Part shown: positions 1,927 to 9,365 of the stretch, in pieces
How positions within the stretch are numbered: the stretch's first letter is position 1
How the letters are laid out: each line of letters opens with the position of its first letter
Source: Methylophilaceae bacterium
Lineage (GTDB): Bacteria > Pseudomonadota > Gammaproteobacteria > Burkholderiales > Methylophilaceae
Length of the DNA stretch: 64,000 nucleotides
Assembly (NCBI GenBank): GCA_017857755.1
Contig: JAFMCM010000002.1
Coordinates: 1-64,000, forward strand
Reading direction: 5' to 3'
Program-made: the position numbers and the translations under genes
The notes under the pieces: generated by a model
Told to the model about the DNA's origin: nothing
Databases searched by the model: none
Seen by the model: only the letters and a program-made list of their open reading frames with translations

Positions 1927-3024
1927 TTACTGTGCTTCTAGATAGCCAGTAATTTCCAAACCGAAACCATCCATACTAGGCATTTTACGCGGTGTTGCCA
2001 TGAGCCTCATCTTTTTTACACCCAAATCTAATAGAATTTGTGAGCCAATGCCATAAGTTCTCAGCTCTTGGTTATAGCGGATGGGCGCATTTGCATTTTG
2101 AATTCGACTCACTAAATCGGTTTCGCTTTCGCCATGGTAAAGCAATACCATGACACCGCAGTCAGCATTGGCAATGGTTTGCATGGCTTTTAAAGTGTTC
2201 CAACTGTGCGAAGTGCTTGAGCGATCAAGTAAGTCAAATACCGAGAGTGGTTCATGCACGCGAACCAGTGTTTCATGCTCTGGGCTAGGGTTGCCTTTGA
2301 TGAGAACAAGGTGAGATTCGTTTGCGATTTTATCGCGATAGACAATTAACTGCATTTCACCGTAAGCCGTAATGATGCTACGCTCGACTGCGCGCTCGAT
2401 TAAGGTTTCATGTTCGCTACGGTAATGAATTAAATCAGCAATGGTACCAATCTTGATTTGGTGTTGCGCAGCGATTGCAACTAAATCGGGTAAACGTGCC
2501 ATTTCACCATCGTCTTTGAGAATTTCACAAATGACGCTGGACGGCTCTAAGCCAGCCAAAGCAGCCAAGTCTGAACCCGCCTCTGTATGGCCTGCGCGAA
2601 CGAGCACGCCGCCATTCATGGCTTTAAGAGGAAAGACATGGCCTGGGCTAACGATGCTTTGAGCATTGGCCTCTTTGGCAACTGCTGCTTGTATGGTCTT
2701 GGCACGGTCGGCCGCAGAAATGCCCGTAGTGACACCTTCCGCCGCCTCGATTGAGACAGTGAAGTTAGTGCCTAGCCGTGTCCCATTGTGGTCAACCATA
2801 GGTGGTAAATTTAATCGTTTACATCTTGTTTCATCTAAGGTTAAGCAAATCAATCCACGACCATACTTCGCCATAAAGTTAATATTTGCTGCTGTTGCAA
2901 ATTCTGCAGCGATAACAAAATCACCCTCATTTTCGCGATTTTCATCGTCCACTAAAATGACCATTTTACCGTCTTTAATATCGGCAATGATTTCTGAAAT
3001 GGGGCTAATTTGACTGTTTGGCAT
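1927..3024 (-). CDS. ribB: RibBX: 3,4-dihydroxy-2-butanone-4-phosphate synthase with degenerate GTP cyclohydrolase II-like domain
   Basis: Makes 3,4-dihydroxy-2-butanone 4-phosphate from ribulose 5-phosphate for riboflavin. The N-terminal RibB domain (about residues 1-205) is intact: acidic loop DDENRENEGD at 26-35 and HTEAGSD at 146-152. The C-terminal domain (about 206-365) aligns by length and general pattern with GTP cyclohydrolase II, but where RibA has the zinc cluster (GSxRCDCGxQ) this protein reads SVFDLLDRSSTSHSWNTLKA without the cysteines. This is the RibBX architecture described in proteobacteria, in which cyclohydrolase activity is lost; a separate ribA would be needed elsewhere. 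The start codon directly follows the ribE stop, so the two are co-transcribed. Confidence 0.93.
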   Translation of the reverse strand: MPNSQISPISEIIADIKDGKMVILVDDENRENEGDFVIAAEFATAANINFMAKYGRGLICLTLDETRCKRLNLPPMVDHNGTRLGTNFTVSIEAAEGVTTGISAADRAKTIQAAVAKEANAQSIVSPGHVFPLKAMNGGVLVRAGHTEAGSDLAALAGLEPSSVICEILKDDGEMARLPDLVAIAAQHQIKIGTIADLIHYRSEHETLIERAVERSIITAYGEMQLIVYRDKIANESHLVLIKGNPSPEHETLVRVHEPLSVFDLLDRSSTSHSWNTLKAMQTIANADCGVMVLLYHGESETDLVSRIQNANAPIRYNQELRTYGIGSQILLDLGVKKMRLMATPRKMPSMDGFGLEITGYLEAQ

Positions 3025-3624
3025 TTAACGGCTTTCGGCTTCCCACTGTTGCATACGTTCCACATAGCGGGCAATTTGATCAATTTCTAAATTCACGTGG
3101 CTACCAACTTGCAGCGCGCCCAATGTCGTTTTTTCTAGTGTGTGCGGAATAATATTCATCGTAAACACATCTTTATTTACTGCATTCACTGTTAAGCTAA
3201 CACCGTTTACGCAGATAGAACCCTTGCGTGCAATATATTTTGAGACGGCATGGGGCGCTTGAATAGCCAATAACCAACAATCATTGACTGGCTCAAATTG
3301 CACCACTTCACCAACGCCATCGACATGGCCGCTGACCAAATGACCACCTAAGCGGTCGTCTAATCGCAGGGCTTTTTCTAGATTGACCAATCCTATTTTA
3401 TCTAAGCCAGTGGTGACATTTAAGCTTTCCTTCGAAACATCAGCGGTAAAATGAGCTTTGCTTAACTTTGTTACCGTTAAGCAAACGCCATTAATCGCAA
3501 TGCTATCGCCTTCTTTTACGTCAGTTAGGTCTAGTTGCTTCGCATCAATATTGATTTGAATATCACCTGTTGATATTGCAATAGGTCTAATTTCCCCAAC
3601 GGCTTGTATGATTCCAGTAAACAT
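3025..3624 (-). CDS. ribE: Riboflavin synthase alpha chain
   Basis: Converts two molecules of 6,7-dimethyl-8-ribityllumazine into riboflavin, the last step of the pathway, in the cytoplasm. The 199-residue protein starts with the invariant MFTGIIQAVG and has the two tandem lumazine-binding repeats, each with a G-D-S-x-x-(I/V)-N-G-V-(C/S)-L-T-type motif (SIAINGVCLTV in the first, SICVNGVSLTV in the second) and a GHLVSGHVDG segment at the repeat boundary. Length is normal. It is followed without a gap by ribBX. No ribD or ribH is adjacent, and no FMN-riboswitch-like conserved stem set is visible in 3625-3736, so regulation by RFN is not supported here. Confidence 0.95.
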   Translation of the reverse strand: MFTGIIQAVGEIRPIAISTGDIQINIDAKQLDLTDVKEGDSIAINGVCLTVTKLSKAHFTADVSKESLNVTTGLDKIGLVNLEKALRLDDRLGGHLVSGHVDGVGEVVQFEPVNDCWLLAIQAPHAVSKYIARKGSICVNGVSLTVNAVNKDVFTMNIIPHTLEKTTLGALQVGSHVNLEIDQIARYVERMQQWEAESR

Positions 3625-3736: not shown

Positions 3737-5020
3737 ATGTCTTTTTTTAGTCAATTGCTTTTAAAGGTGGGTTTACCCTACGAGCTGTTTGTCGGTTTGC
3801 GTTATACCCGCGCCAAGCGTAAAAATCATTTTATTTCGTTTATTTCACTCACCAGCATGGTTGGTATCGCCTTGGGTGTGGCTGCCTTGATTATTGTGCT
3901 TTCTGTGATGAATGGGTTCCAAGCCGAGTTGCGAAACCGTATTCTTGGTGTGGCTTCCCACATTGAAATTACCCAAAATAATCAACAACTCAGTCGCTGG
4001 CCATCATTAGCCAAGCAAGTTGAGGCGCAACCCAACGTGATTGCAACTGCGCCTTATGTTATGGCGCAGGGTCTGTTAAGTTATGGAAAAGCCGTGCAAG
4101 GTGCATTGGTTAGAGGTGTATTGCCATCAAAAGAAGATCAAGTGGCGGATTTAGGTAAAAAAATGCTGGTTGGCCAGTTAGCAGACTTGGTTTCAGGTGG
4201 TTTCAACATTGTTTTAGGCGTTGATTTAGCCTATGCTTTGGGCGTGAACGTTGGCGATAAAGTGGTATTGATGGCGCCCCAAGGTCAGTTTACGCCGACA
4301 GGTGTGATTCCACGCATCAGGCAGTTTACCGTGGTTGGCTTATTTCAAATCGGCATGTATGAATATGATGCTGGCTTAGCGCTTATTCATATTGAAGATG
4401 CGGCTAAGCTTTATAGGATGGGCGATAAGGTTTCTGGCTTACGTTTAAAAATCAACGAGTTATTTGATGCGCCTGCCATGACATCTGCCTTAGACAAGGC
4501 CTTGCTTCCATTGGGAGCGTATCACATTACCGATTGGACGCAACAGCACGCCAATTTCTTTAAAGCAATCCAATTAGAAAAGCGTGTGATGTTTATTATA
4601 TTGACCCTGATTGTTGCAGTTGCCGCGTTTAATATCGTGTCAACGCTGGTGATGGCGGTTACCGATAAACGTGCCGATATTGCTATCCTGCGAACGTTAG
4701 GTGCCAGTCCTAAGAGTATTATGCAAATCTTTATCATTCAAGGCGCGCTTATTGGTATTGTTGGAACTTGCTTTGGTGCGATTTTTGGCATCATCATCGC
4801 CATGAATATTGATACAATTATTCCGTTTATCGAAAGCCTGTTTCACGTTCAATTTTTAGCCAAAGATGTCTATTACATCAGTGAGTTACCTTCAAAAATA
4901 GAGTGGGCTGACACCATTGCCATCATCATTACTTCTGTGATATTAAGTTTACTGGCAACACTTTATCCAAGCTATAAAGCATCCAAAATTAATCCAGCGG
5001 AGGCTTTGCGATATGAATAG
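3737..5020 (+). CDS. lolC: Lipoprotein-releasing ABC transporter permease LolC/LolE
   Basis: Inner-membrane subunit of the LolCDE complex, which extracts mature outer-membrane lipoproteins and hands them to LolA. It has 427 residues: one N-terminal membrane segment (about 33-60, ending VLSVMNGF, a hallmark of the family), a large periplasmic domain (about 65-280), and three C-terminal membrane segments (about 285-310, 330-355 and 390-412) typical of FtsX/MacB-type permeases, closing with [16 protein letters not shown]. Only one LolC/E-type gene is present here and it overlaps lolD by 8 bases. If no second permease exists elsewhere, it would form a homodimer of the LolF kind; that is inference. 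It diverges from ribE across 3625-3736. Confidence 0.93.
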
Positions 5021-5687
5021 TATTATCCGCTGTGAAGGACTCAGAAAAACTTATACTGGGTTAGACGTGGCAGTCCTTAATGGCATTGATTTAAAAGTTA
5101 AAAAAGGTGAGCAAATTGCCATTGTTGGTGCTTCTGGCTCGGGCAAAAGCACCTTGCTACATTTGCTTGGTGGATTAGACACGCCTAGTGCAGGTGAGGT
5201 GTCACTGCTTGGAAATAACTTAAATCAATTGTCAGAAACCAAAAAAGGTCAAATTCGTAATGACTCATTAGGTTTTGTTTATCAATTTCACCATCTTTTG
5301 CCTGAATTTACTGCAGTTGAAAACGTAGCAATGCCATTATTCATTGGGCGTATGCCTCGAGAACAGGCTTTGCAAACTGCACGTGAAATGTTAGAAAAAG
5401 TTGGACTATCCCATCGCTTGGCGCATATGCCAGGTGAACTATCTGGTGGAGAGCGTCAACGCGCCGCATTAGCGCGGGCGCTTGTCACAGGGCCTGCATG
5501 TATCTTAGCTGACGAGCCAACAGGGAACTTAGACAGAGTCACTGCCGCACAAGTGTTTGATTTGTTGATTGAAATTAATGCGGTATTGAACACCAGCTTG
5601 GTGGTAGTGACGCATGATTTATCGCTAGCCAGCAAAATGCATCGGCAATACCAATTAGAAGATGGTCTGCTGAAGACTTTGGACTAA
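5013..5687 (+). CDS. lolD: Lipoprotein-releasing ABC transporter ATPase
   Basis: ATP-binding subunit of the Lol exporter, peripheral on the cytoplasmic face. The 224-residue protein has Walker [10 protein letters not shown] at residues 39-47, the Q-loop within [18 protein letters not shown] at about 88-105 (the LolD form), the ABC signature LSGGERQR at 143-150, Walker B ILADEP at about 164-169 and the switch histidine in VVTHD. The length is that of canonical LolD. Its ATG overlaps the last codons of lolC, so the two are translationally coupled. The downstream flank (5688-6295) is a gene graveyard, and nothing else of the Lol operon follows. Confidence 0.96.
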
Positions 5688-5694
5688 TTTCAAT

Positions 5695-5852
5695 TTAGCT
5701 TGGCCAAGCCTTCATGGCTAATGTGGCTACATGTAACAATTCTTTTTTGCTTGCACCACTTGTTGCTTGTACTGACATCCCTTGATGTAAGGTAGCAAGA
5801 TATCTAGCCAACGCTTGCGGACTCGCTTCGTGCGATAAATCACCATCCACAC
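5695..5852 (-). pseudogene. Remnant: C-terminal end of a TetR/AcrR-family regulator
   Basis: Read on the minus strand, about 50 codons end at a TAA (5695-5697) with no internal stop. They give GDLSHEASPQALARYLATLH, then QGMSVQATSGASKKELLHVA and finally TLAMKAWPS. This is the ordinary C-terminal end of a TetR-family repressor (the segment that usually reads roughly G-D-L-x-x-x-x-D-P-x-A-L-A-R-Y-L...QGMxVQAxxGAS). The DNA-binding N-terminus and most of the ligand domain are absent, so it cannot work. The fragment breaks off at about 5850, exactly where a hydrolase fragment of opposite orientation begins. That suggests a divergent regulator/target pair that lost both 5' halves. Confidence 0.75.
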
Positions 5853-6031
5853 AGCCAGTATTGGTCGTGTCTGGTAGTCATGACACCATGTTGTCTACTG
5901 AAGGTTCAATCACCATGTTTAAGCAACTTAATAATGCGCAGTTGGTGCTTTATCCTGATTCAGATCACGGTTCAATTTTCCAGTACCACAATGCTTTTGT
6001 TAACGCGGCAGATTATTTCTTATGCCATTAA
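5849..6031 (+). pseudogene. Remnant: C-terminal end of an alpha/beta hydrolase
   Basis: A stop-free plus-strand stretch ends at TAA 6029-6031 and reads TQPVLVVSGSHDTMLSTEGS, then ITMFKQLNNAQLVLYPDSDH and GSIFQYHNAFVNAADYFLCH. This is the terminal third of an alpha/beta hydrolase: the loop bearing the catalytic acid (SGSHD) and the catalytic histidine (PDSDHGS) are still recognisable. The nucleophile-elbow half, with GxSxG, is missing and there is no start codon or ribosome-binding site. The 5' break coincides with the 5' break of the TetR fragment on the other strand. TetR-controlled alpha/beta hydrolases are a common accessory pair, so this is probably a relic of an acquired module. Confidence 0.75.
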
Positions 6032-6295
6032 TTGACTGCTGTCCATTTCTGAGAAAAAGGTGGCCAGATAACAATAGATCTTAACTTAAGATGGCTTCCG
6101 CTGATGGTAAGAGGTGGATGCTAGGCACATTCCGAGGCCACTAGTCTTACTGCACCAAAAAAATGTCTTCACATGGCTGTATTGCGCCATTGACCATGCT
6201 GTTTTACTATATACATTGATCCTTTGCGCTGATAGATGTGTGGCTATTTTTCGCATGTTTTTGCATTGAAAACAATATTCAAAAAATAAATAATC
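6032..6295. other. Non-coding stretch before comEC, no recognisable gene
   Basis: These 264 bases hold no frame I can recognise. All six frames are broken by stops, and I cannot match the sequence to an insertion-sequence end or a structured RNA. It continues the decayed segment that starts after lolD. The final AT-rich 50 bases immediately before the comEC ATG probably contain its promoter, but no convincing -35/-10 pair or strong Shine-Dalgarno is visible. Confidence 0.5.
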
Positions 6296-8686
6296 ATGAT
6301 CTCAACCTTAACGCTTGCTGGCTTTTTAGTCGGTGTTAGTTTATTACAACAGCAAGCGAGCTTGCCTGCGTTACCTTGGTTGTTTCTGCCGTTGATATTG
6401 CTTGCTTTTATGCTGTTTTGCTGGGCTAAGTTAAAGCCACTTGTGCAATGGGTGTTTGTTTTTTTGGTGGCTGGCTGGCTGGGGTTTTCTTACGCGGCAT
6501 GGTTGGCGACGTGGCGGTTAAGTGATGCATTACCTAAAGCATGGGAAAAGCAAGATATTGAAGTGATTGGTGTTGTTGCTGATTTACCGCAAGCGAACCC
6601 ACGGGGAATGCGTTTTGCCTTTGATATCGAGCAGGTGCTTACACCTGAAGCAACGGTGCCTAAGCACATTGTCCTCAATTACTATCAATCCAACACTTGG
6701 CAACAATGGTCAAGCAAAGCGAGTCAGCCGCCTGAGATTAAGGCTACAAGCATACATGCAGGACAACGTTGGCAGTTAAGCGTTAGATTAAAGCGTCCAC
6801 ATACTTCATATAATCCAAATGGTTATGATTTTGAAGCTTGGGCACTTACTGAGAAAATTCGTGCGGCGGGGTATATCCGTGCCCAAGCGCCGATGCGAAA
6901 GTTAAATAATTTTGTTTGGCGACCTTCGTATGTGATTGCCTATTGCCGTGAAAAGGTGAGTGACCATATTGCCAACGTACTGATTAATCAAAACTATGCG
7001 GGTGTGATTCGCGCTTTGGTGATTGGTGACCATAGTCAAATTAATGCGCAAGATTGGGATGCCTATTTAAAAACGGGCACTAATCACTTGATGAGTATTT
7101 CTGGCTTACACATCACCATGCTATCTGGTTTAGCCTTTGGTTTAGTCACTTTTGTTTGGCGCCGCATTCCATGGTTAGTACTGTATTTACCCACTAAAAA
7201 AGCTGCGATTATCGGTGGTGCGCTCGCTGGATTGCTCTATGCATGTTTGGCAGGCCTGTCTGTGCCGACGCAACGTACGCTCATCATGTTGCTCACCTTT
7301 GCTGTTGCCTTATTGCTTAATAAGCAGGTAATGATTGCTCGAGCACTTGCGATTGCTTTGTTGCTTGTTGTGTTGTTTGATCCATGGGCGGTGATTGCGC
7401 CTGGTTTCTGGTTGTCTTTTTCTGCGGTGGCCTTTATTGCTTACGCAGTGGCTAATCGATTAAAGGTTGGACATTGGCTTGCTGAAGCGGCGCATACCCA
7501 GTTCGCTGTCACTTTGGGTTTATTACCGTTTCTGATATTGATGTTTGGACAAGCTTCTATCATTTCACCAATTGCAAACGCAGTTGCGATTCCCATGGTC
7601 AGCTTGTTGGTTGTACCGTTTGCCATTTTAGGCGCTTTAGTGCCTTTGGATTTTATTATGCAAGCTGCGCATCAAGTGCTGGCGATTGTGATGTATTTTC
7701 TGAACTGGATGGCAGATTCACCGATGGCGGTTTGGCAACAAGCAGTCCCGCCTTTATGGGCAGTCTTGTTGGCCCTATAGGGTGTGGTTTGGCTATTATT
7801 ACCGCGTGGTTTACCACAGCGATGGCTTGGCCTAATCCTCATTTTACCCATGATGATGACGAAACCATTGGCATTAAGCCAAGGTGAAATGCAGGTGGCG
7901 GTGCTCGATGTAGGGCAGGGTTTAGCTGTCGTAATCAAGACAGCCAAGCATGTGATGCTGTATGACGCAGGTCCAAAATATAATCAGGAAAAAAATGCAG
8001 GCATCAGCATTGTAATGCCTTATTTGTTTAGTCAGGGGATTCAGCAATTAAGCGCTCTGGTGGTCAGTCATGAGGACAGTGACCATAGTGGGGGCGCAGC
8101 TGCTATCCTAGCTAAGATGCCGGTTGCTTGGCTGATGAGTTCGTATGATTTTCCGCAAACCATACAGACTATGCCACAACAATTGAAGTGTTATGCTGGG
8201 CAAAGTTGGGTTTGGGATGCTGTGCGGTTTGATGTGCTTTATCCTAGTAAAGCAAGCAAACAGGATGCTGATGTTAAGGATAATAATAGAAGTTGCGTGA
8301 TTAAAGTAACTAGCCGCTACGGGGCTGTTCTGTTGACGGGCGATATTGAAAAGCGCGCAGAGCAAGTTTTGTTAGCGCGCCAAGCATCTCGATTGAAAAG
8401 TGGTGTATTAATTGCACCTCATCACGGTAGTAAAACATCCTCATCAAAAGCGCTGATTGATGCGGTCGCTGCCAAATATGTTGTTTTCACTGTTGGGTAT
8501 TTGAATCGTTTTAAGCATCCGCAGCCCATCGTGGTGAGCCGATATCTAGAAGTCGGTGCTACCACTTATCGGTCAGATTATGATGGTGCAATTTTAATCG
8601 ACTTTACTGAGCAAAATCCAATGCACGTTAATCGTTGGCGACGATCTCACGCTAAATATTGGCACGACCAATTTTATCAAGACTAA
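6296..8686 (+). pseudogene. comEC: DNA-uptake channel ComEC (DNA internalization-related competence protein), interrupted by an in-frame TAG
   Basis: ComEC forms the inner-membrane channel for single-stranded DNA in natural transformation. The first part (6296-7780, 494 residues) has N-terminal membrane segments, a DUF4131-type periplasmic region and the multi-spanning Competence domain (TNHLMSISGLHITMLSGL at about residues 262-279). A TAG at 7778-7780 stops it. The same frame continues immediately (GVVWLLLPRGLPQRWLG) into the metallo-beta-lactamase-like domain (LDVGQG; SHEDSDHSGG with the HxDxDH metal site) and ends at 8686. Read through, the protein would be about 796 residues, normal for ComEC. 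A GTG at 7784 could restart translation. It is most simply a single nonsense mutation, or a sequencing error. Confidence 0.85.
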
Positions 8687-8762: not shown

Positions 8763-9365
8763 GTGTGGGAAATTATTTTAGCTGCTGGGTGGCCAATTTG
8801 GCCATTAATTTTCGCTTCAATTATTGCGTTAGCCATTATTGTTGAACGTGCCTGGGCGTTGAGAAGTGAAATTGTTGCGCCAAGTAATCTATTGCCAGAA
8901 GTGCAAAAGTGGATGGGTCAAGGCGTTGTCAATCAAGAGAGTTTAGCTAAACTTGAGATTCATTCCTTGTTGGGCAGAATTTTTGCAAGTGCATTAGCCA
9001 ATGAGAAAAATACGAGAGAGGTGATGAAAGAGTCAATTGAGGAAACTGGGCGTGCAGTAGCACATAGCCTGGAAAAATATCTTTCTACCCTTGGTACGAT
9101 TGCAACAGTGGCACCGCTACTTGGTTTACTTGGTACAGTGATTGGTATGGTGGAGTTATTTGGTGCTTTTACTAATTCAGGTCATGATGTTGCCCAATTT
9201 GCTCGAGGCATTTCGGTTGCGCTTTACAATACTGCGGCAGGTATTGTTGTGGCTGTCCCTGCCATGATTGCTTACCGATATTTCCGTTCTAAAGTGGATA
9301 CTCTGTTGCTCGATATGGAACAGCAAGCGATTAAATTAGTTGAAATTCTGCACGGTGAACGTTAA
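8763..9365 (+). CDS. exbB: MotA/TolQ/ExbB proton-channel family protein (ExbB)
   Basis: Inner-membrane subunit of a proton-driven ExbBD motor that would energise TonB- or Tol-like work at the outer membrane. It has 200 residues: one N-terminal membrane segment (about 5-27), a cytoplasmic loop, then two membrane segments (about 110-135 and 150-178) with the conserved LGTIATVAPLLGLLGTVIGM signature. It starts with GTG at 8763, supported by AGGAG about 9 bases upstream; no in-frame ATG fits. It is followed after 30 bases by exbD. No tonB is adjacent, and the pair heads a run into msbA-lpxK-kdsB, a conserved betaproteobacterial neighbourhood. Confidence 0.92.
   Translation: MWEIILAAGWPIWPLIFASIIALAIIVERAWALRSEIVAPSNLLPEVQKWMGQGVVNQESLAKLEIHSLLGRIFASALANEKNTREVMKESIEETGRAVAHSLEKYLSTLGTIATVAPLLGLLGTVIGMVELFGAFTNSGHDVAQFARGISVALYNTAAGIVVAVPAMIAYRYFRSKVDTLLLDMEQQAIKLVEILHGER

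Follow-up and report, generated by a model that had tools for sequence, protein, structure and literature searches.

Does the TAG that lies in frame within comEC of this Methylophilaceae genome mark a broken gene, a gene divided in two, a stop codon that is read through, or a wrong base in a draft sequence? The genome is a draft of 1,598,151 bases in 67 contigs, listed as 99.4% complete, and the window analyzed here is the stretch of 64,000 nucleotides formed by bases 1–64000 of contig 53. In the assembled sequence, comEC is one frame of 796 codons on the plus strand (6296–8686) if the TAG is counted as sense, opening with the ATG at 6296 and closing with the TAA at 8684–8686; the TAG itself occupies 7778–7780 (plus strand), codon 495. 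The first-pass annotation had described this arrangement, with a frame running on to 8686 and a protein of 796 residues were the codon sense, and the assembled sequence bears it out.

Functionally, the 494 codons that precede the TAG (upstream part 6296–7780, plus strand) encode the OB-fold region (DUF4131, PF13567, E 5e-30) and the Competence channel domain (PF03772, E 1.3e-54), and the downstream part (7781–8686, plus strand) encodes the metallo-beta-lactamase nuclease domain (Lactamase_B, PF00753, E 9.2e-16), which begins at about residue 532. The metal-binding motif of the nuclease domain, encoded past the stop at 8069–8086 (plus strand, residues 592–597), is intact and reads SHEDSDH, with H-x-D-x-D-H being the form of the ComEC motif used in the excerpted account of PMC12455585, which also sets out what the domains do. 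All three ComEC domains are present, and what the TAG at codon 495 removes is the one-frame continuity seen in relatives; in having a premature stop relative to its homologues, comEC here resembles a pseudogene.

Coding signal around the stop and codon 495 in relatives

Among the 53 stop codons of the window that have 50 open codons on each side, the comEC TAG came second when ranked by the coding signal flanking it on both sides. The first-ranked stop (3025, minus strand) sits where two separate ORFs meet (3025–3624 and 1927–3024), and the remaining ten of the best 12 lie at the ends of listed ORFs. Since the read-through protein is homologous to congener proteins along its length, these coding scores and that homology together exclude a chance open frame past the TAG.

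Evolutionarily, 28 of the 29 relatives examined cover the stop position, all in one uninterrupted frame; the 29th (L026, genome G013) ends before it, and the comEC of that genome is broken. Among named records found to carry this gene, the closest come from Methylotenera, Methylovorus, Methylobacillus and similar genera. The column that aligns with codon 495 is sense in all 52 aligned relatives and is variable and mostly hydrophobic (L 28, F 8, I 4, V 4, A 4, G 2, M 1, C 1). Two separate conserved proteins meeting at this point, which the first-pass annotation had raised as the contrary arrangement, were looked for among relatives and not found, the nearest of these relatives being congeners whose proteins are 61% (G005) and 65% (G001) identical to the read-through ComEC; at this identity and in so variable a column, the ancestral codon cannot be named from the alignment.

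The stop lies within a predicted transmembrane helix

The stop had been placed between the channel and nuclease domains, and the structure model locates it differently. In that model, for which the stop was treated as a residue and 34 relatives served as input (mean pLDDT 88.1, pTM 0.88), one helix is predicted at residues 487–500 and a short second helix at 508–520, and the nuclease domain has its first strand at 532, so that residue 495 falls inside the first helix, 37 residues before the metallo-beta-lactamase fold begins. Hydropathy agrees, with residue 495 at about the middle of a hydrophobic segment spanning 484–502. The downstream part would accordingly open with the remainder of a helix, and, because the stop falls mid-helix, neither half is a natural domain unit.

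This position bears directly on the possibility of a functional split, in which the upstream part yields a nuclease-free channel and translation of the downstream part starts anew at the GTG at 7784–7786 (plus strand) or at ATG 7850–7856. Both parts are conserved, the metal motif is intact, the GTG stands one codon beyond the stop, and a nuclease-free ComEC exists in nature in the Helicobacter pylori homologue, according to the part of PMC12455585 drawn on here. That homologue lacks the nuclease domain just as the predicted upstream product would; it has a stable architecture, however, whereas here the fragment would end mid-helix and the nuclease sequence still stands downstream. If both products were to work, the cut would be expected to fall in a linker rather than midway along a transmembrane helix, and a split gene was found in no relative. 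Scanning 15 bases, we found no Shine-Dalgarno match before GTG 7784 or ATG 7850–7856, which is weak evidence on restart in that a match is also absent at the comEC ATG at 6296 and at two of the six other gene starts used for comparison. There was likewise no promoter-like site within 7400–8000, and the pilus that would be expected to deliver DNA is missing (see below). We regard a functional split as highly improbable. A conserved two-gene ComEC was rejected, given that no relative has the split, the cut is mid-helix and a start signal is lacking, and the proposal of a separate soluble domain restarting at GTG 7784 found no positive support from either the Shine-Dalgarno scan or the position of the cut. 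Scarcely credible, too, is a working two-part ComEC in which a nuclease-free channel cooperates with a separate, membrane-anchored nuclease, possibly fed by the MSHA-like pilus described below.

Recoding, suppression and read-through

Amber read-through or suppression would yield some full-length ComEC, and the frame beyond the stop shows no visible decay, which speaks for it. Against this, the gene for release factor RF1 (prfA) is present with an uninterrupted frame, and TAG terminates 10 of the 41 window ORFs used for coding training. Recoding of TAG was rejected on these two grounds, in agreement with the first-pass annotation, which had held that TAG is a normal stop elsewhere and that genome-wide recoding is not the explanation. 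CUA is absent from the 22 tRNAs whose anticodons could be read, a weak observation in that the set is incomplete. The RNA fold gave no sign of a read-through element, as the RNA from the stop onward folds no better than its shuffles (z −1.25). The amber read-through proposed earlier is thus left without positive support, and we consider it extremely unlikely that full-length ComEC is made in this way. As a separate observation on the assembly, only 22 tRNAs were recovered from a genome listed as 99.4% complete, and none was seen for Ala, Ile, Asp, Glu or His.

Sequence conservation and likely age of the change

Where a column is conserved in at least 90% of the reference relatives, this ComEC is changed at 11 of 235, compared with 13 of 235 in G005, 11 of 235 in G004 and 8 of 229 in G001. 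Neither half shows an excess of change over G005 at these columns, and in a first comparison at the 90% threshold the protein ranked 32 of 35, which is unremarkable beside its congeners. Because the frame, the TAG aside, is as conserved as that of G005, the change appears to be recent; on these alignments, the lesion is either recent or not a lesion in living cells at all. The lack of excess substitutions also fits a comEC that the cells still use, or an error in the base.

The last of these deserves separate weighing: the TAG could stem from faulty assembly or base calling, or be a minority strain variant in the draft consensus, with the living population carrying an intact comEC. The 67-contig draft state of the genome speaks for it, as does a frame that is intact apart from this base and as conserved as that of G005. 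Against it, no other within-gene stop occurs among the best 12 of the 53 ranked window stops, the frames of dprA, comEA, pilT, prfA and aroB are uninterrupted in the same genome, and loss of pilMNOPQ provides an independent reason to expect comEC to decay. We judge such an error unlikely.

Pilus loss and the probable inactivation of comEC

The first-pass annotation had suggested that intact comEA, pilus and dprA genes be looked for, and this check yielded the strongest clue to a loss of transformation. DprA (an open frame of 368 aa) and ComEA (104 aa) are intact, as is PilT, while the pilMNOPQ operon is gone. PilM to PilP were sought at the syntenic site between mrcA and aroK, and PilQ and PilB elsewhere in the genome as well; the mrcA–aroK gap measures ~0.3 kb with nothing of pilMNOPQ detected in it, and neither PilQ nor PilB was found over the cut-off anywhere in the genome. 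Thus, among the components looked for in DNA uptake, ComEA and DprA are present, and PilQ, PilMNOP and PilB were not found. The names pilM to pilP are our assumption from known operon order, PilQ alone having been matched to its family.

Among congeners, G005 and G001 carry the pilMNOPQ operon between mrcA and aroK-aroB, G004 has no more than the final 38 residues of pilQ left in the mrcA–aroK interval, G002 retains a pilQ piece with three stops at the same site, and no pil gene was seen between mrcA and aroK in G003. These differing scars suggest separate deletions of pilMNOPQ. Congener trees group G004 with G005 on weak support, and because tree supports are weak, it is chiefly from the scars that independent pilus losses are counted. 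The same pairing of losses seen here (comEC and pilQ) recurs in G004 through different lesions, its comEC being frameshifted near residue 660; G005 keeps both genes, with comEC open.

The best secretin match in the genome belongs to an apparent MSHA pilus locus on contig C40 (L181, G000:C40:1-10490), which encodes the secretin, an MshEN-type ATPase and a platform protein. This remaining MSHA-like locus, having its own secretin, could in principle serve DNA uptake. In Acinetobacter baylyi, transformation needs core pilus parts including the secretin, according to the part of PMC5542475 drawn on here.

Of the four options first offered for the TAG, these comparisons best support a nonsense mutation accompanied by loss of transformation, restart and read-through having no positive support as described above. 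We consider it probable that comEC was put out of action by a recent nonsense mutation, in a Methylophilaceae lineage of reduced genome size (1.6 Mb) that was losing, or had already lost, its DNA-uptake pilus. With pilMNOPQ and pilB gone, DNA should no longer reach the periplasm, and because uptake should cease in this way, comEC would be freed from selection, such that the first disabling change could persist. The expected product would be a channel fragment of 494 residues that ends within a transmembrane helix and has no nuclease domain, and the downstream part would probably go untranslated. The order of these events, the loss of transformation and the reality of the base in living cells are all things that we infer. 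Speaking against this account are the still intact DprA, ComEA and PilT, the remaining MSHA-like locus, the lack of excess substitutions at conserved columns and the loose tie between comEC breakage and pilus loss across the family (see below). As a process, this would be ordinary pseudogene formation.

The neighborhood of comEC is disturbed as well. Directly upstream, between comEC and an ABC-transporter ATPase gene (5013–5687, plus strand; family ABC_tran) that we take to be lolD, lies a gap of 608 bp (5688–6295), compared with a median of 9 bp and a maximum of 347 in 28 relatives. It holds a remnant of an alpha/beta hydrolase C-terminus (5855–6031, plus strand; Abhydrolase_4, E 7.8e-7), and the decayed scar that had been described ahead of comEC is in this sense real. 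The scar gave no match at E 0.01 among the other loci compared, and a fragment on its reverse strand that looked TetR-like was set aside, having no Pfam match. The scar may also have separated comEC from the upstream operon. On the other side, the next gene downstream (8763–9365, plus strand) is of exbB type and syntenic in relatives.

comEC across the Methylophilaceae

With the read-through ComEC as query, a match was obtained in 120 of 187 Methylophilaceae genomes. Classified by hand, comEC is open in 90 of the 187, broken in 15, undecided in 15 (contig edges or unclear cases) and not found in 67; stops flagged in eight genomes (G203, G192, G193, G149, G024, G112, G111 and G179) proved to be terminal. 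G001 was counted as open, its comEC being open from about residue 57 and preceded by unrelated sequence (L198/L199). A second comEC piece in that genome, covering residues 9–263, stops at a contig end, and the presence of two pieces could reflect misassembly, contamination or insertion. No comEC match was obtained in G002 (86% complete) or G003 (48% complete). Two further genomes have a comEC that is full apart from one internal stop, TAG in G105 and TGA in G151, at unrelated codons. The former (L206) lies in the channel domain, in a single-contig genome that has PilQ, and the latter (L209) in the nuclease domain.

PilQ was over the cut-off in 103 of the 187 genomes, distributed as 79 with and 11 without among those with open comEC, nine with and six without among the broken, ten with and five without among the undecided, and five with and 62 without where comEC was not found. 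The link between the two genes (Fisher's test, p 0.015 for open versus broken and 5e-22 for open versus broken plus not found) is an association only, given that the genomes share ancestry, that not all of them are complete and that many of those in the not-found class belong to small-genome genera. A rule of "no pilus, no comEC" was rejected, since 11 of 90 genomes with open comEC lack PilQ over the cut-off and 9 of 15 with broken comEC have it. As these cases demonstrate, comEC can persist after PilQ has gone and can also be broken in genomes that still have PilQ. Separately, four reduced genomes encode a short PilQ-like secretin (G002:C22, G079:C15, G090:C34 and G138:C74; frames of 515–526 aa, 313–326 bits versus the usual ~500) and have no comEC match; the secretin possibly belongs to a different pilus.

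A further kind of lesion was seen in three genomes (G006, G022 and G143), in which comEC is cut at the same codon (…HLMSI/SGLH…, codons 263–271) by inserts of ~16, 29 and 2.7 kb (loci L222, L223-L224 and L220, respectively) that have similar left ends. In G006, a large serine recombinase with Resolvase, Recombinase and zinc-ribbon domains adjoins the junction, and the cargo includes a ScaI-type restriction endonuclease, a DNA methylase and a reverse transcriptase. On this evidence, codons 263–271 appear to serve mobile elements as a site-specific attachment point. Further comEC pieces end near codons 260–283, at or near contig ends, in G091, G207, G209 and G001. The comEC studied here is uninterrupted at the insertion site.

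We posit that, if the TAG is real, this lineage has been caught in the act of losing transformation, with the uptake pilus of the outer membrane deleted, the channel of the inner membrane freshly broken, and DprA and ComEA persisting. Breakage of comEC has recurred in the Methylophilaceae through point mutation, frameshift, deletion and mobile-element insertion, and the family is for this reason a convenient group in which to follow the order of transformation-gene loss during genome reduction.

Comparison with known systems

In the literature searched (Methylotenera with comEC; Methylophilaceae with streamlining and competence), we found no report of comEC loss in Methylophilaceae. The former search led to PMC13059738, the excerpt of which concerns the comEC of a patescibacterial epibiont. 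Within the same family, planktonic Methylophilaceae have lost type IV pili along with genome reduction (PMC6794327), an account that, in its excerpted part, leaves competence and comEC unmentioned; the genome studied here differs in being only partly reduced and in keeping comEC as a broken gene. Repeated inactivation of a transformation gene among relatives has a likeness in the comM pseudogenes of Acinetobacter baumannii, as excerpted from PMC11472951, although that is another gene, disrupted mostly by mobile-element insertion, and its disruption lowers transformation rather than abolishing it. Insertion into comEC itself is represented by a Variovorax prophage listed in the excerpt of PMC9658991, and mobile-element disruption of comEC is called rare in the portion of PMC12955456 used here. 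That source also supplies a parallel, Piscirickettsia salmonis, in which comEC is broken, by lesions that include premature stops and frameshifts, comEA and dprA are intact, and transformation is presumed lost. There, though, the organism is a pathogen in which every genome has its comEC interrupted by mobile elements, whereas here a free-living methylotroph carries one stop codon in comEC and has lost the pilus operon by deletion as well.
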